Source: Entophlyctis helioformis
Taxonomy: Eukaryota > Chytridiomycota > Chytridiomycetes > Chytridiales > Chytriomycetaceae
DNA length: 64,000 bases
Direction of reading: 5' to 3'
Assembly: GCA_025526915.1 (NCBI GenBank)
Contig: JAHLKH010000029.1
Coordinates: forward strand, 124,001-188,000
This document shows, one piece after another, positions 47,449 through 60,593 of the stretch (within the stretch, counting starts at the first letter, position 1; each line of letters starts with the position of its first letter). The notes under the pieces were generated by a model. It was not told the origin of the DNA. It was given only the letters and a program-made list of their open reading frames with translations, and did not search any database. A program made the position numbers and the translations under genes.

Positions 47449-49757
47449 ATGATCCACGCCGACCCCACAGACTCGCCCGCGCCGCCCCCGTACTCGCCCA
47501 ACGACAGCGTCTCTGCCAGCATCCACGTGGCCCGTTGTCCGTCGTCTGACACGCCAGACACGGACCCCACCGAGCACCTGCTCGTGCGTCTTGCGTCCGC
47601 CTCCAAGGGCATCGCTGCGTCCGTCAACCTCGTCTGCGTCATTGACGTCTCGGGCTCCATGGGCGAGGCTGCCACCATCCGCAACGAGCAGAACACCATG
47701 GAGGACGCCGGCATGGCTGTTCTCGATGTCATCAAGCACGCCATGCTCACCATCATCAACGCCCTCAAGCCGTCCGACTCGCTCGCCATCGTCACCTTCA
47801 CCAACGACTCTGCCGTTGTCCTGCCGCTGACGCCCATGGACGCTGCTGGCCAGGCCCTGGCTTCAAGTGCCGTCGCCGCCCTCAGACCGCTGAGCATGAC
47901 GAATCTGTGGGCGGGTCTCGAGCGCGGTCTCGAGCTGCTGCGCTCCACCAAGACCACCAACAACAAGCTCAGCAGCATCTTCCTCTTCACCGACGGCGTC
48001 CGCAACATGGGCCCTGTAAGTTGCCGCACTGCTCCTGCCGTCCCAGCGACCGATTCATCGCAGTCTGCATTGGTCGTGCACAGCAGCAACCAACTGACAC
48101 AGCCACACCATTCATGCACGCTGCCATCCACGGCGCCACCAAACAGGCCAAGGGCGACGTTGCTGCTCTGAGCGACTACAAGCGCACCCACGAGGGTCTC
48201 CCCGCTGTCATCAGCACGTTTGGCTTTGGAAACAGCCTCGAGTCGGCAGACCTTGCTGCCATGGCCCGCATCGGCTGCGGCTCGTTTTCATACATCCCCG
48301 ACTCTGGCTTCACCGGCACCGTCTTTGTCAACGCGCTCGCCAACCTGCTCTCGACGACGACAAAGAACGCCATTCTCGAGCTCAAGCCTCGTCCTGGTGC
48401 ACAGATTGGCCTCAACCCAGACACCACGCTTCCAGGCGGCTTCCAGATCATCAACGGCGACACGATCATGACAGACTCTGACCAATCTAGCCAGATCGTC
48501 TGGACTGGCGCGTCTGTTCTGGTCAGCATCCCCAACCTGCGTGTTGACCAGCCGTTTGACATGATCATTCCAATGCGCGGCGTCACCACGAGCGGCTCTG
48601 ATCCGTCCCCCTTTCTCGAAGCGACGCTGTCCTACCAGCCGTGGTACTCGGACGAGTCTGCGGTTGCTCATGTCGACGTGACCGGCATGCTTGTGGACCA
48701 ATCAGACATTCCGCGCAAGGAGGTCGGCAAGCACGTCCAGCGTCTGCTCTTTGTCGACGAGGTCCGCTCCTGTCTCACCGATGCGCTCCTTGGCGCCAAG
48801 CAGCCCGAACTTGATGGCCGCATCGACGCTCTCATTCCCAAGATTGACCGCAACATGCACAAGGATCTGCTGGTTGATCTGCGCGGCGAGGCGCGTCTTG
48901 CCCTCAGAGGAGACAACCTTCGTCGCTGGGGCCGCCACTATATTCTGAGCCTGACGAGTGCTCACGCCCTCCAGATCTGCGCCAACTTCAAAGACCCGGG
49001 TCTGCAGTCGTACGGCGGCCAACTATTCCGCACTCTGCGCGATTCCTTTGATGCCATCTTCATAACGCTGCCGCCGCCCAAGCCAAGTCGTAAGGGCCAG
49101 CGTCCTGCAACGGGCACTACGTCGGTTGGTGCTCCCCACACAATGATGTACTACCACAGCAGCTCTCGGCCTTGCTTTGCTGGCAACACGCTTGTCCTCA
49201 TGGCCAATGGATCGCAGCGCCGCATCTCGGATCTGGCTCGTGGCGATGTGGTGGCAACCAATGCGTCTCTGAGCAGCACTGCCCGCGTTTGCTGTCTTGT
49301 CAAGACACCCTGCCCTTCGGGCATGGCCAATCTTGTCACGCTCGAAGGTGGCCTGCGCATCACACCGTACCATCCAGTCCAGCAGTCTGGCAAGTGGGCT
49401 TTCCCGTGCAGCATTGCCGAGCCTGCATCAGTGCCATGCGACGCAGTCTACAACCTTGTTCTGGACAGCAACCACACGATCATTGCCAACGGCCACTCGA
49501 CTGTCACGCTTGGGCACGGCGTGGCGAACGACCCTGTTGCATCGCACCAGTACTTTGGCACTCGCGCCGTGGTTGACGATCTTGAGTGCATGCGCGGCTG
49601 GTCAAGTGGCACGGTTGTCCTGGCTGGAATGTGGCGCGACGGTCTCACTGGTCTTGTCTGCGGTCTGTGCGAGGCTGAGCAGGACCATGACAACCACCAG
49701 GCAGATGCCCTCTCTGCTGTTTCCTCTGCCTCTGCAGCTGCCGTTGTTGTTTGCTGA
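47449..49757 (+). CDS. VWA-Hint protein (von Willebrand A, Vwaint, Hint domains)
   Basis: Two exons (47449-48015 and 48147-49757, phase 0) give 725 residues. The N-terminal VWA domain has a full metal-ion site: DVSGSMGE, the Thr in MTNLW, and FLFTDGV. It continues as STFGFGNSLESADLAAMARI and a beta-rich segment. A helical Vwaint region (about residues 400-530) contains HVQRLLFVDEVRSCL. The last 210 residues are a Hint module starting with the nucleophilic cysteine of CFAGNTLVLMANGSQRRISD, with the histidine in LRITPYHPV. Hint modules fold like inteins and hedgehog C-termini and can self-cleave; whether this one does is unknown. There is no signal peptide, so an intracellular protein is likely. 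A minus-strand integrase frame runs into its 3' end. Confidence 0.9.
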
Positions 49758-51190
49758 GTGATGTTTGCCTGTCACTGGCTTGCCCTTGTGAATGAAGTGA
49801 TTTATGGATGTGATCTGAGGGACTTCGTGATACTTGTGATTGGAAACAGAGGCGTTGCGATCCACTGGAGCAGGCATGTGGCGTGTTGGTTGAGGTGTGG
49901 GTGGGCGGGCATCCAACAAAGCAGCCAAGTACTGGTCCAGCAGATCAGCCTCTGAGCGGTACTTGCTGTGCTGTGGGCCGTGGCCGAGGTACGAGACCAC
50001 AAACGAGTGATGGCCGTTGCGAGCGACCTTGTGTCCAACAATCGCGTCAATCTCCCATTCAGCTGCTGCAGGGTCATCAGCAAAGGCGACTGCAGGCGGC
50101 TGAGCAGGCAGTGGCCGGCCTGGGAAAGCAGCGGCCGGATCGCGGTATGGCTTCAGCAGACGGACGTGGAACCACGGATGCAGACGATGCATGGTCGGGT
50201 GCAGAGCCAGCTTGCAGTTGAGACCATCCAGTGCGGCATTGACCTCTGTGATCGGGAATGGACCCAGCCAGTTGGGCAGGAACGCATTGGGGCGATGCGT
50301 GTCGGTGGGCCACCCAATGCCGGCGGCTTGCAGCATGACCATGTCGCCGACAGCATAGGCAGGAGCATCACGGCGGTGGCGGTCAGTGTTGCACTTCTGC
50401 TGTTCCTGTGCCTTGACCAGGTTGGCTGTGGCATCCACGCGAGCCTTGTCAATGGCAGCGAGCAGGTCGCGGACAGCAGGCGGCGACGATGCTGCCGGCT
50501 CGTGTGGCAGCGTGCGAGGCTCGAGACCAAAGGCGAGGAAGTACGGAGCATAGCCAGTCGATGCACTTGGAGCAGAGTTGAGGGCGTGGACAGCCGCATC
50601 GAGCATGTGCTCCCAGTTGCTGCCGCAGTGGTTGGCGTACTTGGACAGCAGGTCCTTGAGCGTGCGGATGGTGCGTTCGGACTGGCCGTCGGTCTCCTGG
50701 TGGCGGGCCGTTGCCATGACCTGCTCAATGTCCAGCGCCGCACAGAGCGCCGTCCAGAAGGCAGACAGGAAGCGAGCGTCGCGGTCCGACACGATAGACG
50801 ACGGCAGGCCGTGGCCAGCAAGCACCCATCGGTTGAGGAACAGCGCGGCAAGATCCTCGGCAGTCGCATCGCGTCGCGTCGGCACGCACTTGACAAGCTT
50901 TGTCAGGCGATCCACAATCACAAACACAGCGTCGTTGCCCTCGTCCGACATGGGCATGAAGGCAATGTCGCACGCCACAGACTGGAAGCGGTCGGCAGGG
51001 ATGGGCAGCGGGTGCAGCAGACCGGCAGGCGCCTGCGTCGACGAGTTGAACCGCTGGCAGGCGTCGCACGAGCCCACAAAGCGGCCGACCGACGCAGCCA
51101 TGTCCGGCCAGTAGTAGTGCGCACGCAGACGGCGAGCAGTACGAGCTTGTCCCTGGTGGCCAGCATGAGGCGAGCCGCACCACCACCGCC
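49758..51190 (-). mobile_element. chromovirus (Ty3/Gypsy) integrase relic with chromodomain
   Basis: The 3' part of an LTR-retrotransposon pol gene, truncated upstream: no protease, reverse transcriptase or RNase H is present. From the 5' side (about 51,170) it has the zinc motif HAGHQG...CDACQRF, then the integrase core with the catalytic acids in ACDIAFM, DRDARF and TDGQSERTIRTLKDLL. The GPFPITEVN region follows, and a chromodomain-like end (EWEIDAIVGHKVA, SFVVSYLGHGPQHSKYR) that marks chromoviruses. The frame is intact for about 1.4 kb, suggesting a fairly recent insertion or constraint. The open frame continues to 49,602, antisense to the end of the VWA-Hint gene. I see no LTRs. Confidence 0.85.
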
Positions 51191-51250
51191 TGGATCTGGC
51201 TCAACGTCGCTTTCCAGCCACCGCGTCCATCTTGCCCAACAGCACAACAA

Positions 51251-52140
51251 CCGCAATGTCTGCCAACAGCAGCACAGGCAGCAGCAAGGACAGTGAGCCA
51301 AACCTGTCTGGCAGCAGTCTCTGGACCAGCGTGCCTGCAGATGTCCAGCCAGCGACTCTCTCGGCGTCAGGCTCCTTTGCTCTGTTTGTCAATGGCATGC
51401 TCGACAGCGACAGCCGCCTGCTCGACGACGTCGTCCGTGTGCTGTGGCGAGACGCCATCACACTCGACTGGCAGGGCGACCTGCAGCTGCTGCCGGACGC
51501 ATGGCTCGGTTCTGACAGCCACGGCGGCTTGCTGCTCGTCAAGACACGCTCCATGTACCACCGTCTGCGAGCACGGTTGCCAGAGCAGGACAGCGACCAG
51601 CGCGAGTTCCTTGAGAGCATCAACTGCTACTCGGCCGGCGAGTTCAACACGCTGCCCATGGACGGCTGCCTCCTCCATGCTGCCCATGTGCAACGGCTGG
51701 TGGGATCTGCTCGACTGTCAGCATGCGTGCTCTTGGCTGGATGGCTATTGCTCATGGCTACACCGGCCTGCTGTGCCACCTTGTCAAGGAGCACGGCGTC
51801 GACCTTGAGCAGCACGACACTGTTGATGACTATGCGGCAATGGACAAGGCGGCTTGCAACGGCCATCTTGCCATTGCCAGATGCTGCACGAGGCAGGAAG
51901 CGCTGCCTGCACCACACGGCCATGGACCATGCTGCTGCCTGTGGGCATCTGGATGTGATCGTGTGGCTGCATCGGCACAGGACGGAAGGCTGCACTTGGC
52001 AGGCGATGGCGAATGCTGCCAAGCATGGCCATCTCGCGGTCGTTGAGTTCCTGCATCTCAACCTCGTGAAGGCGATGCTGACAGAGCGGCTTCGTGGGCG
52101 AGGAAGAAGGGCCACGCCACATTGCCGGCTGGCTGCATGA
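51251..52140 (+). pseudogene. ankyrin-repeat gene, broken by frameshifts
   Basis: Translation begins well (MSANSSTGSSKDS, then an F-box-like or N-terminal region with LWRDAITLDWQGDL). Ankyrin-like segments then appear in different frames: LGWMAIAHGYTGLLCHLVKE and DKAACNGHLAIA in one, TAMDHAAACGHLDVIVWLH and MANAAKHGHLAVVEFLHL in another. At least two one-base changes are needed to join them, one near 51,710 and one near 51,890, where TGCTGCACGAGG probably lost a C. No GT-AG introns explain both jumps. Divergent ankyrin proteins with this GHLxVxxWLH repeat form large families in chytrids and oomycetes. It is flanked by a retroelement relic and the pseudokinase gene. Confidence 0.6.
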
Positions 52141-52487: not shown

Positions 52488-55400
52488 ATGACCGTCAGCC
52501 CCAACAACAGCCCGCCAGACGGACCGACGCCGCCAGCGTCGTCTCGTCCCAGCACTGCTCCAAGTGTGGTCGCCATCACCACGCCGCCTCGAGCCATCGC
52601 TGCTCCAAGTGTGGCCGCCAGCAGCAGCAAGAGCAAGCTGAGCAAGTGGTACGACCGCCTCGCTTGCGGCAGTGAGCTCGACATTGGCCAGCAGGCGGCT
52701 CCTGCCAAGAGCGCCTCGTCCTCTGTCTTGGCCGTTGAAGATGACGAGCAGCGATCCGCTCCTCCAAGAGGTGTGCCAATCAGCAGTGCCGTTGTGGCTG
52801 CAAGCGATTCCAACAAGGTGTGGCCGTGCACACACTGCTGCCGCTGCTGCTGCTGCTGCTGCTGCTGTCTTGCGACCCACACAGACTGACAATGCTGACG
52901 ATCCCTGCAGTTCCAGCGCCAGTTGCTCATGATCCTAAGGAACGAGATGCAGTCGGTCGAGTCGATGGATCTTTCCAAGCCGACGATCTGGTCAGTGCCA
53001 TCAACGGCATGCCAGCAGGCTGTTCGAGCTGCAGAGCCAGATCCTCGAGGAAGCCCGTTCTGCTGCCGCCGTCGCTGAAGACGACTCGCAGGCCCAGGCT
53101 GCCAAGTCAGCCATGGCAGATGCCGCCTTTGAAGAGCTCAAGAGCGTTCTCGGATCGGCACTTGAGGGCCATGAGGCACTCACGACCGCCTGCAACTCGT
53201 TCCTCAAGAAAGTTGGCGAGGACGAGGTTGCCTTTGACACGGCCACCGTCTCCAACATCGCCACGCTGTCGTCGTCCGTCGTCGAGTTTGTCGACATGAT
53301 CCGCAAGGCTCCCAAGAAGACCGACGGCAGCAGCGTCAAGGCCGTCACGCGCTTCCTCGCCACCAACGGTCTCGAAGTCGCCTCGACCGTCATCTCTGCT
53401 GCCAAGGCTGCATCGCACTTTGTGCCGATCCCAGGCATTGCTGTCGCCATTGGCATCATCGACAACATCCTCGCCAACGTCAAGGACGGCATGGACAGCA
53501 TTGGCGGTCTGAAGAGCTTCCTGGCCGACCTCAAGGAACTTAAGGCGATCCTTGCACCCATGGCCAACCAGTGGTTCTCTGCCGATGTGCGCGGCAAGTG
53601 CGCCGAGCTGGTGGATCTGCTCAAGCAAGTTCAGGCATCTATCGAGGTTGGCACCAGCACAACGGGCAGCTGGTTCGAGTTTTTGACTGGATCCAAGAGG
53701 GCCGAGGTCGAAGCCCAGATGGCTGGATACAGGAGCCGTCTTGCCAAGATCAAGGAGGTGTGTGACGATCGCTTTGCTCTCATGGATCTGTGCACTTGGC
53801 TGACTGACACACTTCACCCACCAGCTGATCTCGCTCGCCATGCAAGTGGACTCTGCTGTCATGCTCATGCACACGGCCAAGAAACTCAACCTGATCGACA
53901 CCAAGACGGACAAGATCCTGCAGTGCGTGTTGCTGCCAGTGGCTGCCACCACCACACCATGCCCATCCACTGACACGCGACGCACTGCAGATTCCTGCGT
54001 CCACGTGCTCTCCACCTTCGCCACAACGACTTTCTCATCTCAGCCGTCCCTGAAGACTCCAAGGGCACATTCATGGTGTACAAGGCCAAGATGGATGGCA
54101 GCGAGATCATCGTCAAGGAGTTCAAGCACAGCCTAGACGATGCTTTGTGCACCACTATCGAGCACGAGGCACGCCAGTGGTTCAAGCTCAGTCACGCCAA
54201 CCTGCTGCCCATCACAGGCATCTGTCTCAAGGGCAAGGACGACAGGAAGCCATTCATTGCCATGCCATACATGGACTGCGATCTCGAGTCGTACTTGGCT
54301 GCCCATCCTGATCTTAGTGTACACGAGCGTTTACTCATTCTGGCTTGTATTGCGCGTGGCCTCAAGTACCTGCACGTGTACGCACCTGGCGCACCTGTTG
54401 TCCACTGCAGTCTCTCCATGAGCCGCATCCATCTCGGTCAGTCGACCGTCTTTCTGTTGCTGCTGATGCCAACTGGCAGGTTACTCACACAAAGTCTTGA
54501 TGACAGACTCCAAGGGCATCAAGGTCAAGATCAGTGTCGGCATGCAGTCTATTCGCGCCTTGGCTGGATCCATCCACAGCACCAGTGATGCCAAGTACAT
54601 GGCACCTGAAGCCAAAGCAAGAGGAATTGGACAAGGCAACAATACCAGCATCGGCAACCCTCAAGACCAGTCAATGGACAAGGCGGATGAACAGCAGAGG
54701 CTTCAACCGTCAGTTGATGTCTATTCGTTTGGCGTCCTTGCTCAGGATGTCTTGGCACAGGCAGCCAACCAACTCCAGCGACCAGACAACACCAGTGCCG
54801 ATGTGTGGCAGAGTCTGCAGGATACTCTCAAGACCTGCTGCAACATCAAGCCTGCTGATCGCCCTGACATTTTCACAATTGTCAAGGCATTGGCCATGGC
54901 AACCAGGCCAGTTGATGGTATGCCATTGTTCATGCTCTGTTCATCCACTAGCAGTCTGCTCACTTTTTTGTGTTCAAATGACAGGTGGTGCTGTCAAGTT
55001 GGAAGATGGAGCATCTGATCTCGAAATCCTGTGTGCCATCTTCCCAGAGTGGGCCAAGGACAGTGAGATCACAGTCAACTCTGAGCGTCCAACAGGCGAG
55101 CTGATGAACCTCTATGATACACATGCCAAACGCATCACTCCAAAGTGGCAGCTGGAGTGGGATGAGCAGCATAACTTGACTGCCCTGTAAGTATTGCTGT
55201 CTGCATGCTGGTTGACAAGTGACTGATGCACCAAACATTGCTATGGGCAAACAGGCGGTTGACTGGTTGCAGTCTGTCTGGCAACATTCCCAAGGACATT
55301 GGACGCCTGAGGATGCTCAAGGAGCTGTGGCTTGACCAGAATGAGCTTGATGGTGAAATCCCACCAAGCATCTGCCAGCTGACCAAGTTGACATCATTGT

Positions 55401-58365
55401 GAGCATGCATCTTGATGGCCAGCTGGATGTGGCATCCTGGCTGACATTGAGCAACAGGCGGCTTGGACAAAACAACCTGCAAGGATCTGTGCCACACTTT
55501 ATCTTCAAGCTGGAACATCTTGATGAGCTGTGAGTTGTGTGTGCCTATGGCTGCTGTGGTGAAAGTGACTGACATTGAGTGCAATCCATAGTGACATTGC
55601 TGATAACCAGATCACAAAGTTGCCAGCATCCATTAGCAGACTCACTCAACTCAAAACACTGTGAGTACCATGCATTGTCTGGCTTGAACTGGCAATCACT
55701 GATATCCTCAAAGCAATGTGTACAACAACCAGATCTCAGAGCTCCCAGAGACCATTGCCAATCTAACCAGTCTGACAAAGCTGTAAGGATTGTGCTGCTC
55801 TGCCTTGGTTGGCTTGATATGAACATGGCTGACCCTGATTGGACAGGCTGATTGGAGGCAAGGCAATTGGTGACATCTCTGCCATTGGCAAGATGATCAA
55901 TCTGACAGAGCTGTATGTTGACTTTCATTTACTGCAGATGAATGTGGCAGCTGACAGACAGTCACTTGTAGGAGGATTACAAAGAGCCAGCTTGCAATGC
56001 TTCCAGGAACCATTGGTGATCTGGCTGACTTGGAAATACTGTGAGTTGGTTGTGACTATTGTAACATGGGTTGATTCTGATGCTTGATATGATGGGAAAC
56101 AGAGACCTTTCAGGAAATCAACTGAAGGAGGTGCCAAGCTGCATTTACAAGCTGAGGAATCTGACAAGGCTGTAAGTACTGTATTGTCTCTTGTACCTAT
56201 TTGCAGGTAGACTGACTTGATGGATGCAGGAACATGTCCAACAACCAGCTGTCAGGAAGCATTCCAAGTGAACTTGGCAATCTGGCCAATCTGACTCAGC
56301 TGTAAGCATTGTACAGTCTCATGTGACTGCTTGCAGATTGACTGACATGTTGATGATTGCAGGGCTCTTCACAACAACAAACTGGAGGGACTTTTTCCAC
56401 CTGAACTGGGCAATCTCGTCAATCTGATTGGACTGTAAGCATTGCACTGTCTTGTGTGACTGCCTACAGATGGGCTGACTTGATGATTGCAGGGGTCTTT
56501 CCAAAAACCAGTTGTCAGGAAGCATTCCAGCTGAGCTTGGTAATCTTATCAGCCTTACTTATTTGTAAGTCATTGCATTTTCTGATGTATCTGTTTGCAG
56601 ATGGACTGACTTGCTGGTTGCAGGAATCTATACAACAACCGGCTGTCAGGAGGAATACCTGCTGAGCTGGGCAATCTGATCAATCTGACTCAGCTGTTAG
56701 TATTGCTTGGTAGTTATGTGTGACATTTCAGATGGACTGACTTGATGATTTCAGGCGTCTCAACAAAAACCAGTTGTCAGGAAGCATCCCAGCTGAGCTT
56801 GGCAATCTGGTCAATCTGGTGTATTTGTAAGTCATTCCACTGCCTCATGTACCTGCTTGCAGACAGACTGACTTGATGAATGCAGGGGTATTGCTGAAAA
56901 TCAACTGTCAGGAAGCATTCCAACTGAGCTGGGCAAACTAGTCAATCTGACTGAGTTGTAAGCATTGCATTGACTTGTGTGAATGTTTGCAGATGGACTG
57001 ACCAAATGATTGTAGGAATCTTTCCAAAAACCAACTGGAAGGAAACATCCCAACTGAACTGGGCAATCTGATGAATCTGAATCAGCTGTAAGCATTGCAT
57101 TGTCTCATGTATCTGTTTGCAGATGGACTGACTTGATGAATGCAGGAATCTCTACAACAACCAGTTGTCAGGAAGCATCCCAGCTGAGCTTGGCAATCTG
57201 GTCAATCTGACTTTTTTGTAAGCATTTCACTGTCTTGTGTGTCTGCTTGCAGATAGACTGACTTGATGATTGCAGGGGCCTATGGAATAACCAACTGAAG
57301 GGAAGCATTCCAACCAGGCTGGACAATCTGGTCAATCTGACAAACCTGTAAGCATCCTGTTGGCTTGCATGACTGCCTGCAGATGCACTGACTTGATGAT
57401 TGAAGGGGGCTTTCCAAAAACCAGCTGAAAGGCAAGATTCCAGTTGAACTGGGCAATCTTGTCAACCTGACTTATTTGTAAGTCACTGCATTGCTATGTG
57501 AACAGTTTCAGATGGACTGAATCAATGATGGAAGGAACCTCTACAAGAACCAGCTTTCAGGAGGCATCCCAACTGAACTTGGCAAACTGGTCAATCTGAC
57601 TCATTTGTAAGTCATTTCACTTTCTCATGTGCCTGTTTGCAGATGAACTGACATGGTTATTGCAGGCGTCTTGACAACAACCAGCTGTCAGGAGGCATCC
57701 CAACTGAACTTGGCAAACTGGTCAATCTGACCCATCTGTAAGTCATTGCACTGTCATGTATTTGCTTGCAGATGGACTGACTTGTTGATTGCAGGTGTCT
57801 CAACAAAAACCAGCTGTCAGGAGGCATCCCAACTGAACTTGGCAAACTGGTCAATTTGACTGAGCTGTAAGTATGTTAGCATCTCATGTGACTGCCTGCA
57901 GATGGGCTTACCAAATGATTGCAGGAGTCTTTCCAAAAACCAGCTTTCAGGAAGCATCCCACCAGAAATGGGCAATCTGGTCAATTTGACTGAGCTGTAA
58001 GTATGTTAGCATCTCATGTGACTGCCTGCAGATGGGCTTACCAAATGATTGCAGGAGTCTTTCCAAAAACCAGTTGTCAGGAAGCATCCCACCAGAAATG
58101 GGCAATCTGGTCAATTTGACTGAGTTGTAAGAATTGCATTATCTCATGTGCCTGATTGCAGATTGACTGACTTGATGATTGCAGGGGTCTCAACAACAAT
58201 CAACTGTCAGGAAGCATTCCAACTGAGCTTGGCAACCTGGTCAATCTGACTGAGCTGTAAGGGTACATGATCTCATGCGACAACCAGCATATGGACTAAA
58301 TCAATGATTGCAGGGGTATTGCTGAAAACCAACTGTCAGGAAGCATTCCAACTGAGCTGGTGTAG
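52488..58365 (+). CDS. HeLo/MLKL-like helical domain - pseudokinase - leucine-rich repeat protein
   Basis: 31 exons join in phase to 1,359 residues. Exons 1-8: 52488-52817, 52911-52990, 53019-53757, 53825-53922, 53991-54436, 54495-54917, 54985-55186, 55255-55398. Residues 1-110 are Ser/Pro-rich. Residues about 150-410 are helical with a hydrophobic core (FVPIPGIAVAIGIIDNIL), resembling the HeLo/MLKL N-terminal bundle found before kinases in fungi. Residues about 417-715 are kinase-like: the VAIK lysine is kept (IIVKEF), but HRD reads HCS (VVHCSLSMSRI) and DFG is lost (KVKISVGM), so it is a pseudokinase; YMAPE is kept. After a linker, 24 plant-type LRRs of 22-24 residues follow, with a truncated 25th ending ELV and a stop. 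The second intron would be only 25-28 nt. No signal peptide or membrane span is seen, so the protein is probably intracellular. Confidence 0.82.
55255..58365 (+). repeat. tandem LRR exon-intron array
   Basis: One exon of 144 nt (two LRRs) is followed by single-LRR exons: one of 72 nt (55458-55529), five of 66-69 nt, then sixteen of 72 nt from 56230 to about 58,257. A partial exon (58314-58365) ends the array. All introns are phase 2 (they split a leucine codon CT|G or TT|G), so units can be gained or lost without frameshift. From 56,230 on the units repeat every 127-133 bases. The introns, about 57-60 nt, are also alike, usually ending in a form of ACTTGATGATTGCAG. The protein consensus is LxxNQLSGSIPTELGNLVNLT, the plant-type LRR. 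Confidence 0.93.
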
Positions 58366-59256: not shown

Positions 59257-60275
59257 TTACACTCCCCCCAGCGTAGACAGCCACTTATAAGAAAGAAGAG
59301 TGGATGAACAGCGACTAGGAGGATGCAGGGGCGTTGCACACACGAGAGGCAGAAGTGCGGGCAACAATGGACGCATAGGACACAGGACGGGGAACCGTGC
59401 GCTCAGAGCAACGAGGTGGGGCGGGATGGTTGAGAGGGGGAAGAGAAGAGAGAGAGAAGGAAGGAGGAGAAGAGGGAGGAGGGAGAGGAGGGAAGGATGG
59501 AGAGAGAGAGAGGGAGATGCAGGTGCAGCAGGTGCGATCGGCTTGTCAGCCGGAGCAGGTGCCGCGGGCGTGGCTGCAGACGGAGCAGGGGCCACTGGTG
59601 CAGGAGCAGGCGCAGTGCGCTTGCGGCGAGAGGGCTTGGATGCCTTGGGCTGCGTGGGAGCAGGCGCCGCGGCTGGAGCAGGAGCAGCCGGTGCAGGAGC
59701 AGCCGGAGCAGGAGCCGCGCGCGTGGGCTGAGCCGGTTTGGACGCCTTGCCCTTAGGCGCCTTGGTCGGCCGAGCATGGAACGCCTTGACGAGGTCCTGG
59801 GCCTTGTGCATGTCGGCGGCTGGGACCCATGTGTTGTCGTCGGCTGGATAACCGACCCACTTGACCAGATACTCGATCTTGCCGCAATAAGTGCGCGAGT
59901 CAACGATCCGCTCGACCTCGTAGTTGTCCGACGTGCCGTCGTCGGCGTGGTACTCGGGGTCAGGCCGGGAGGGCACATCCTTGCGGCCGGTGGGCGCAGA
60001 CAGGGGGTCGACATATGGGCAGATCCGGTCGGCATGGAACACGTTGTGGACGCGGTGCAGCGAGGCAGGCAGCGCAAGCGTGTAGTTGAGGCCAAATTCA
60101 CCAGAGTCCAGGCTGGTGATGGCAAAGGGGCCGAGCCACTTGGCGGCCGTGAGCGGCGGGCGGTGCAAGTCCGCCGGCCAGGAGATGCCCTCAGCGTTGA
60201 GGAGCACCATGTCGCCGACCTTGTACGCAGGGTGACGGCAGCGACGCTTGTTTGCCTGAAACCATTGGGCCCAGT
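59257..60275 (-). mobile_element. second chromovirus integrase relic, C-terminal part with chromodomain
   Basis: The 5'-truncated end of a Ty3/Gypsy pol gene. From about 60,270 on the minus strand: NKRRCRHPAYKVGDMVLLNA (post-core GPY/F-like region), KWLGPFAITSLDSGEFGLNY, HNVFHADRICPYVDPL, and then a good chromodomain (YEVERIVDSRTYCGKIEYLV, KWVGYPADDNTWVPAADM). A Pro/Ala repeat tail follows. The catalytic core is absent. It belongs to a different chromovirus lineage from the relic at 49.8-51.2 kb: the chromodomain is canonical here and degenerate there. Confidence 0.85.
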
Positions 60276-60593
60276 GACGCCCCCAAATCCACACAATCAT
60301 CCCAGTTGGAATCACTCGAAAAATCACTCCAAAAATCATCTGAGATCTGTGCAATCATTCCAAAAATCACTCGAGTTTTGCTCTGCTTGAACTGCGACTT
60401 CCTGCAACCCACACACTGGCTGTTAGGGACAGTTAGGGACAAGGACGTGGGAACGCACAGCACCAGTACTGTTAGGGCCGTCTACCAATGCTCTTTCTGG
60501 TGCACAAAGTCTCATCTTGCTGCCTTGCCTACAAACGTCGCTGTCCCAAGCCAAACTGGAGGCCTTGGCCGTCGCCATCTGTTCTGCACTTCA

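Follow-up and report, generated by a model that had tools for sequence, protein, structure and literature searches.

Chytrid proteins that probably join an MLKL_N-type helical domain, a (pseudo)kinase and a leucine-rich repeat array on one chain

Near one end of a contig of the chytrid Entophlyctis helioformis lies a gene whose product appears to combine, on a single chain, a helical domain resembling that of MLKL, a kinase fold lacking its catalytic aspartates and a long array of leucine-rich repeats (LRRs). The locus raises the questions of whether these parts truly form one protein, whether the helical domain is related to MLKL_N and what a protein of this composition would do. Here, we address them in a 64,000-nt stretch of contig C29 (hereafter, the window), together with the relatives of the gene in the same genome and in public proteins. 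The starting point was a sequence-only reading, which had proposed that the gene encodes a sensor controlling cell death.

An independent gene model, built from the sequence, spans 52488–58365 on the plus strand and comprises 31 exons, separated by 30 introns that are all GT–AG, with a 4,095-nt coding sequence for 1,364 residues (Table 1). It reproduces the coordinates, strand and exon number of the sequence-only reading, and the gene is real. That reading had also described one phase-consistent gene of 1,359 residues; the model is indeed open, but it has 1,364 residues and one of its introns, only 28 nt long, is probably false. The encoded domains follow in the order N-terminal extension, helical domain, pseudokinase and 24 LRRs plus a truncated 25th, which bears out the 24 repeats counted earlier and adds the last one. 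GenBank holds a counterpart, BC831DRAFT_434710, of 1,095 amino acids, which starts at an internal methionine (residue 230 of our model) and whose C terminus stops short of the end of the 1,364-residue model. Because further loci and a second species have the identical order, the comparison supports a single-chain protein. Contig C29 terminates in a TTAGGG tract (188815–189060, past the window end) and the gene ends at C29:182,365, which leaves about 6.4 kb between gene and telomere. We do not conclude that the family is subtelomeric in general: C29 has the TTAGGG end, whereas the tract is absent at the five other contig ends inspected. Such tracts also occur on C54, C110 and C246, among the matches listed.

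Table 1 Features of the gene and its 3′ flank, in window coordinates
Feature	Position	Strand	Basis
Exons 1–2: low-complexity N-terminal tail, then start of helical extension	52488-52817, 52911-52990	+	Gene model; C165 paralogue protein P0015 begins with nearly the same residues
28-nt stretch modelled as an intron; the likelier reading is an assembly error or a broken frame in this copy	52991..53018	+	Paralogue comparison
First part of exon 3: helical extension before the MLKL-like domain, up to residue 269	53019..53415	+	Gene model
MLKL_N-like helical domain, from residue 270, starts HFVPIPGIAVAIGIIDN	53416..53757	+	hhalign; PF22215 in relatives; PDB profile matches
Exon 4: brace/linker segment LISLAMQVDSAVMLMHTAKKLNLIDTKTDKIL, many invariant columns	53825..53922	+	Family alignment; shared phase-0 intron before exon 4
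Pseudokinase, exons 53991-54436 and 54480-54917	53991..54917	+	Gly loop absent, VAIK Lys kept, HCS for HRD, SVGM for DFG, APE kept
Linker with motif ASDLEILCAIFPEWAKD	54985..55186	+	Own-genome matches; similar segments in sister open reading frames
LRR array: 24 exon-encoded repeats and a truncated 25th; exon–intron units of about 130 nt	55255..58365	+	Gene model; repeat comparison
Inverted-repeat element, arms of 97 nt, 86% complementary, beginning at the stop codon	58361..58859	+	Arm comparison; genome search

The kinase-like domain is present in the model as had been read from the letters, without catalytic aspartates (HCS at residues 554–556, SVGM at residues 583–586) and with the VAIK lysine (K458). 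Pfam assigns the region to PK_Tyr_Ser-Thr (6.1e-15), and SymRK is its best sequence match in the PDB. The catalytic aspartate is absent and the lysine kept at all 16 genome loci that have the kinase part (15 with HGS, the window copy with HCS) and in 16 of 16 public family proteins, some of which are two models of one gene. The pseudokinase exon is under purifying selection: the median dN/dS of exon 5 is 0.41, with none of 95 pairs above 1, compared with a median of 0.58 and 4 of 63 pairs above 1 for exon 3 (pairs with dS >= 1.2 omitted, 10 of 105 and 3 of 66, respectively; the stop-bearing copies C68 and C96 included). A tree of 37 kinase domains, from which three near-duplicate and five distant proteins had been removed beforehand and in which three rows are poorly filled, places the pseudokinases on one side of a branch with support of 100/97; the long moss branch joins the pseudokinase branch, a point on which the program gives a warning. 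As the pseudokinases form one clade in this tree, catalysis was, by this comparison, lost once in the family, before the members of E. helioformis and Polyrhizophydium stewartii split, unless the root lies inside the pseudokinases.

The gene has many relatives. Searching the E. helioformis genome with exon 3 returned 30 pieces at about 20 loci, the paralogues being 34–95% identical. Sixteen of these loci matched the kinase part as well, and at 16 loci the family kinase or helical part is followed by the linker or the LRR start; C27 and C318 are in the second list and not the first, C242 and C382 the reverse. The genome search for paralogues of the same order, which the sequence-only reading had suggested, thus finds that order at further loci, and the order, which is thus not peculiar to this gene, recurs in the sister group as well. 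No species other than E. helioformis and P. stewartii has public proteins of the family among the matches up to E=10, in a search with the N-terminal region of the P. stewartii protein P0007 for which 7,994 candidates were scored.

The sister group retains what the window family has lost. The nearest kinases of the same genome, on C153, C223 and C36, carry GxGxxG, VAVK or VAIK, HGDLKANN and DFG; the sister on C2 has degenerate motifs (HGNLNARN and a degenerate DFG), which, judged by these residues, is a separate loss of the catalytic motifs. Both C153 and C2 encode an N-terminal helical domain and a kinase followed by an FPxW linker and LRRs. We also note that G000:C2:314842-315755 and G000:C64:112635-113547 score equally for one part, as in a duplication or two haplotypes. 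With C153 as the query, 29 proteins were obtained at E<=1e-40, from E. helioformis, P. stewartii, Batrachochytrium dendrobatidis, B. salamandrivorans and ‘Hompol1’, which we take to be Homolaphlyctis polyrhiza; the weaker matches that follow include moss and basidiomycete proteins. Among these matches are 23 chytrid sisters, HGD being kept in 22 and DFG in 19 of the 23 rows, so an active kinase is likely to be the ancestral output. Pfam scans of 19 of the 23 detected the kinase in all 19 and LRRs in 17. MLKL_N lies above the curated cut-off in four of them (P0023, P0028, P0032 and P0035) and below it in four more, and the remaining 11 have no listed MLKL_N match at limits of 0.1 and 0.01. P0032 and P0035 are without LRRs, and P0035 has a weak RPW8 match as well; sisters such as P0028 carry the helical domain at the N terminus. 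The same domain order is therefore found in mostly catalytic-looking sisters, B. dendrobatidis included. Some public names or models in this group look wrong: P0021 is a COQ9 fused to a kinase–LRR protein, and MLKL_N–kinase or kinase–LRR proteins are named ‘U1 snRNP protein’ (wrong-looking names among P0023, P0026 and P0035).

It is through these sisters that the helical domain can be connected to MLKL. For the first 416 residues of the model Pfam gives just DUF1611_N at 0.04, below its cut-off, and for the window domain alone no PF22215 (MLKL_N) match is listed. Within the window family, PF22215 matches at E<=1 in 7 of 15 members; that of P0009 has 4.5e-5 and 23.4 bits, below the cut-off of 27. 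When the window-family domain was aligned by hhalign with the sister MLKL_N domain, 126 columns matched with a score of 41.8 (P 3.6e-6), the 100 shuffles reaching 26.8 at most and the reversed control 21.3; the extension upstream of residue 242, represented by nine paralogues, had no hhalign match to the sister MLKL_N alignment. A phase-0 intron occupies the same aligned site in the window and in all three sister loci examined (C153, C2 and C223, the site and phase in C223 being deduced from the open frame only). A profile of six sisters, three of whose domains exceed the Pfam MLKL_N cut-off, matched seven different MLKL sequences among PDB entries, covering 118–122 of its 161 positions at 2e-5 to 5e-4. 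The other listed matches at E<=1 were five designed helical proteins (two of them presumably so), one of them at 1.4e-4 over a short stretch. With three window-family domains added to the six sisters, MLKL was matched at 5e-5 to 9e-4, beneath one designed protein. When eight window-family domains made up the profile by themselves, the PDB yielded no MLKL match, and hhalign of either group against the moss protein P0042, which has MLKL_N, gave no convincing match, so the MLKL link depends on the sisters. A PF22215 search of the genome gave no match, but its control was also silent. The MLKL-like N-terminal domain of the sequence-only reading is thus supported through the sister intermediates (the hhalign match, the shared intron and the sister matches to PF22215 and the PDB), and by these comparisons we judge it likely that the N-terminal domain of the window family is homologous to MLKL_N, through intermediates.

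Structure prediction was of limited use for this domain. AlphaFold modelled window exon 3 with a pLDDT of 46.9, a low confidence, and the paralogue P0004 with a pLDDT of 56.7, the kinase fold being the only usable part. When the P0004 model was compared with known structures (Foldseek and VIA-align), MLKL was not among the best 50 rows of each list, the lists being filled by one domain. The helix order predicted for P0004, at low confidence, is an extra helix, h1, h2, h3, a short helix, h4 and the brace; in the available text of PMC9815663, basidiomycete MLKL-like domains have the same order, including the additional helix ahead of h1 and the short helix that separates h3 from h4. Hydrophobicity along the protein, taken over 19 residues, is highest in the first helix of the MLKL_N-like domain, and the family proteins are probably soluble. 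The helical core is internal, following about 240–270 residues in the window family and about 40 in the GenBank form; it begins at residue 270 of the model, or about 41 of the GenBank form, and thus not at the extreme N terminus. HeLo-type domains act through an N-terminal helix, according to the available part of PMC10197012, and the part of PMC9815663 at hand calls for experiments before N-terminally extended (Goodbye-like) forms are credited with killing. The long stretch ahead of the bundle speaks against a simple copy of MLKL.

At the other end of the protein, the repeats show what a sensor might look like. Pfam detects LRRs in the model; the exons that encode them are mostly 72 nt long and in phase 2, with introns of 53–68 nt, and the count of 24 arises from two repeats in the first LRR exon and 22 more at one per exon. 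The repeats have a plant-like consensus. Sixteen LRR exons recur as units with introns of 57–61 nt, at a median identity of 0.78 for the introns and 0.76 for the exons. Two adjoining exons (57925-58126) encode an identical 23 residues, and one pair among 15 LRR introns is identical, which points to recent duplications of LRR units; the GenBank model contains just one of the twin exons. The LRR intron distance is 0.22–0.24. By the usual geometry of LRRs, the concave positions are those of xxLxLxx. Across 16 window repeats, these positions have a pN of 0.43 and a pN/pS of 1.09, compared with 0.13 and 0.32 at the other positions, and 7 of 3,000 random five-position sets attain the pN of the concave ones; six framework positions have silent changes only. 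At the protein level, exposed positions have a higher entropy than other non-anchor positions in all 11 proteins with enough units (2 of the 13 compared had too few), the excess being weak in P0011 and P0024. The concave positions are therefore hypervariable, and this pattern fits a fast-changing binding surface, as would be expected for recognition receptors. Positive selection on the LRRs is not concluded, as repeats of one gene, such as those compared, may recombine, and structural sites are among the other positions.

Both ends of the window copy may be damaged. Around 52991-53018, the window differs from each of the eight paralogues compared by two or more single-base differences in length, and P0015, the protein of C165, reads straight across the region. 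The 28-nt ‘intron’ is thus probably no real intron, and these observations would mean that the first roughly 135 residues are out of frame or that the assembly contains errors; the MLKL-like core downstream is open under either reading. The inverted-repeat element that begins at the stop codon is present in multiple copies, with 29 matching pieces (its own included) on 10 contigs and relatives on C357, C89, C240, C177, C274 and others. With the stop codon at the start of such an element, the LRR end is probably truncated, the last LRR having probably been cut by its insertion. Given the frame break and the probably truncated end, the window copy may be decaying. Remains of retroelements flank the gene on the minus strand, upstream (49605-51200) with an integrase (H2C2; rve and a Tf2-1-like SH3 below the cut-off) and downstream (59260-60354) with a chromodomain and a weak Tf2-1-like SH3. 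A frame with weak ankyrin repeats (51169-52137, plus strand) adjoins the gene upstream and probably belongs to a broken or intron-bearing gene.

What would such a protein do? By analogy, we propose that the chytrid family consists of all-in-one sensor-effectors, in which an MLKL_N-type four-helix effector with its brace, a pseudokinase switch and an LRR sensor act together; we hold this to be about evenly balanced between right and wrong. The LRR array would bind, inside the cell, a ligand of non-self or damage origin. The pseudokinase would then change shape, as in MLKL, and the brace, which together with the pseudokinase would hold the helix bundle, would let go of it; the analogy comes from the restraint of the bundle by brace and pseudokinase in MLKL, as described in the available text of PMC12881547. 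The released bundles would oligomerise at the membrane and permeabilise it, with the death of the cell or thallus, or signalling, as the outcome. The parasite or self/non-self sensor controlling death that the sequence-only reading had envisaged would be one form of this proposal; the hypervariable LRRs, the expansion of the family and the subtelomeric position of the window copy agree with a death sensor, without showing one.

The main rival is that the family signals and does not kill. MLKL_N would then serve self-association, and the pseudokinase–LRR proteins would be scaffolds, decoys or allosteric partners of their catalytic sisters, for example in zoospore settlement or substrate sensing. 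The motifs HGD and DFG kept by most sisters, the abundance of the sister group in P. stewartii and the internal position of the helical domain in the window family all lend weight to such a role, which we nevertheless regard as unlikely: the MLKL, HeLo and ZAR1 examples of the superfamily attack membranes (PMC12881547, in the part available), and LRR hypervariability suggests the recognition of changing ligands.

Two further readings bear on parts of the proposal. The window copy could be a decaying subtelomeric relic, its 5′ part out of frame and its 3′ end cut by the inverted-repeat element, of a family that works elsewhere in the genome. The single-base differences near its start in all eight paralogues compared and the repeat element from the stop codon onward would be expected of a relic, and in-frame stops do occur in family pieces at other loci (C328, C286, C96, C68 and C111). 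The remainder of the model is open, however, dN/dS of the window copy is 0.34 against C165 (exon 3) and 0.22 against C242 (exon 5), and a shorter protein from Met 230, the GenBank form, would retain the MLKL_N core, the pseudokinase and the LRRs, all of which makes a mere relic improbable. Still less probable, to the point of being very unlikely, is that the helical domain is not MLKL-like and resembles MLKL_N only as any alanine-rich helical protein would. Neither the window sequence by itself nor the family-only profile has an MLKL match, and a designed protein heads the list of the mixed profile, with another inside the MLKL score range in the sister-only list. A chance likeness would nonetheless have to produce the long colinear alignment with its controls and the shared intron site, as well as MLKL_N matches above the cut-off in sisters of the same or shorter architecture; moreover, no chain other than MLKL in the sister-only list is matched along most of the domain at E<0.01.

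MLKL itself is among the nearest counterparts. Like animal and plant MLKL, the window protein has a kinase fold that lacks the catalytic aspartate and keeps the VAIK lysine, preceded by a probable helix bundle and brace; MLKL, too, replaces HRD (by HGK). In MLKL, however, MLKL_N is at the N terminus, from about residue 4 on, whereas in the window family, which has also undergone a large lineage-specific expansion, it lies within the chain; MLKL is not known to have an LRR array. Fungal HeLo/HELL domains, basidiomycete MLKL-like proteins and the MLKL homologues of Glomeromycotina belong to the same domain superfamily. Among early-diverging fungi, MLKL homologues have been found exclusively in Glomeromycotina, with Sel1 repeats, as far as the available text of PMC8778642 goes, and HELL domains have been found joined to kinase or pseudokinase domains (PMC12881547, same portion). 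Unlike HeLo/HELL proteins and the Sel1-repeat homologues, the window family has an LRR array as its sensor and a chytrid as its host.

The LRR part has its own precedents. LRR receptors are almost absent from fungi according to the available passages of PMC2939053 (Soanes and Talbot 2010), which also describe four B. dendrobatidis genes with LRRs and a kinase and no evidence of transmembrane regions. P0028 and P0036, with kinase and LRRs, resemble these genes by description; the same passages mention no N-terminal MLKL-like domain or pseudokinase branch, unlike the chytrid family here. Plant LRR receptor kinases share the LRRs and a related kinase domain (SymRK being the best PDB match), but in the window family the order is reversed, with the kinase before the LRRs, an MLKL_N-like domain is added and the most hydrophobic 19-residue stretch is within the helical domain and not between kinase and LRRs. 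A description of the MLKL_N–(pseudo)kinase–LRR architecture was not found in the open full-text literature searched (subscription papers and preprints being outside its scope), nor in the available part of PMC5005798. The window family is thus an MLKL-type protein with an LRR sensor that is undescribed in that literature, so far as its accessible text goes.

The organization resembles that of plant NLRs (CC/RPW8–NB-ARC–LRR), in which a helix-bundle effector, a central switch and an LRR sensor also share one chain; in the window family, a (pseudo)kinase occupies the position of the NOD. The absence of NB-ARC noted in the sequence-only reading extends from protein to genome: among the matches listed, neither residues 1–896 of the model nor 15 relatives have NB-ARC or NACHT, and no NB-ARC was found in the E. 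helioformis genome in a search whose control was positive in 6 of 14 genomes. One NACHT match was reported in the genome (G000:C17:90946-91446, minus strand), in an open frame of 1,043 amino acids. The available text of PMC4986451 (Dyrka et al. 2014) reports that NLRs were not found in the chytrids analysed, nor LRRs in the NLRs of fungi. It is tempting, though a doubtful extension, to suppose that chytrids of this group use the MLKL_N–(pseudo)kinase–LRR family in place of NLRs. Fungi would then have, in its members, their first LRR-based intracellular death receptors, in which a dead kinase would be the switch in place of the NOD of other receptors, and the catalytic sisters and pseudokinases would form a RIPK3/MLKL-like pair of one architecture. 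The series from catalytic kinase to pseudokinase would allow the study of how an MLKL-type pseudokinase switch arises. An MLKL-type effector that shares a chain with a (pseudo)kinase and a quickly changing array of LRRs would represent another route to an all-in-one sensor-effector, and the family may, by analogy, serve the chytrid as immune receptors serve plants.
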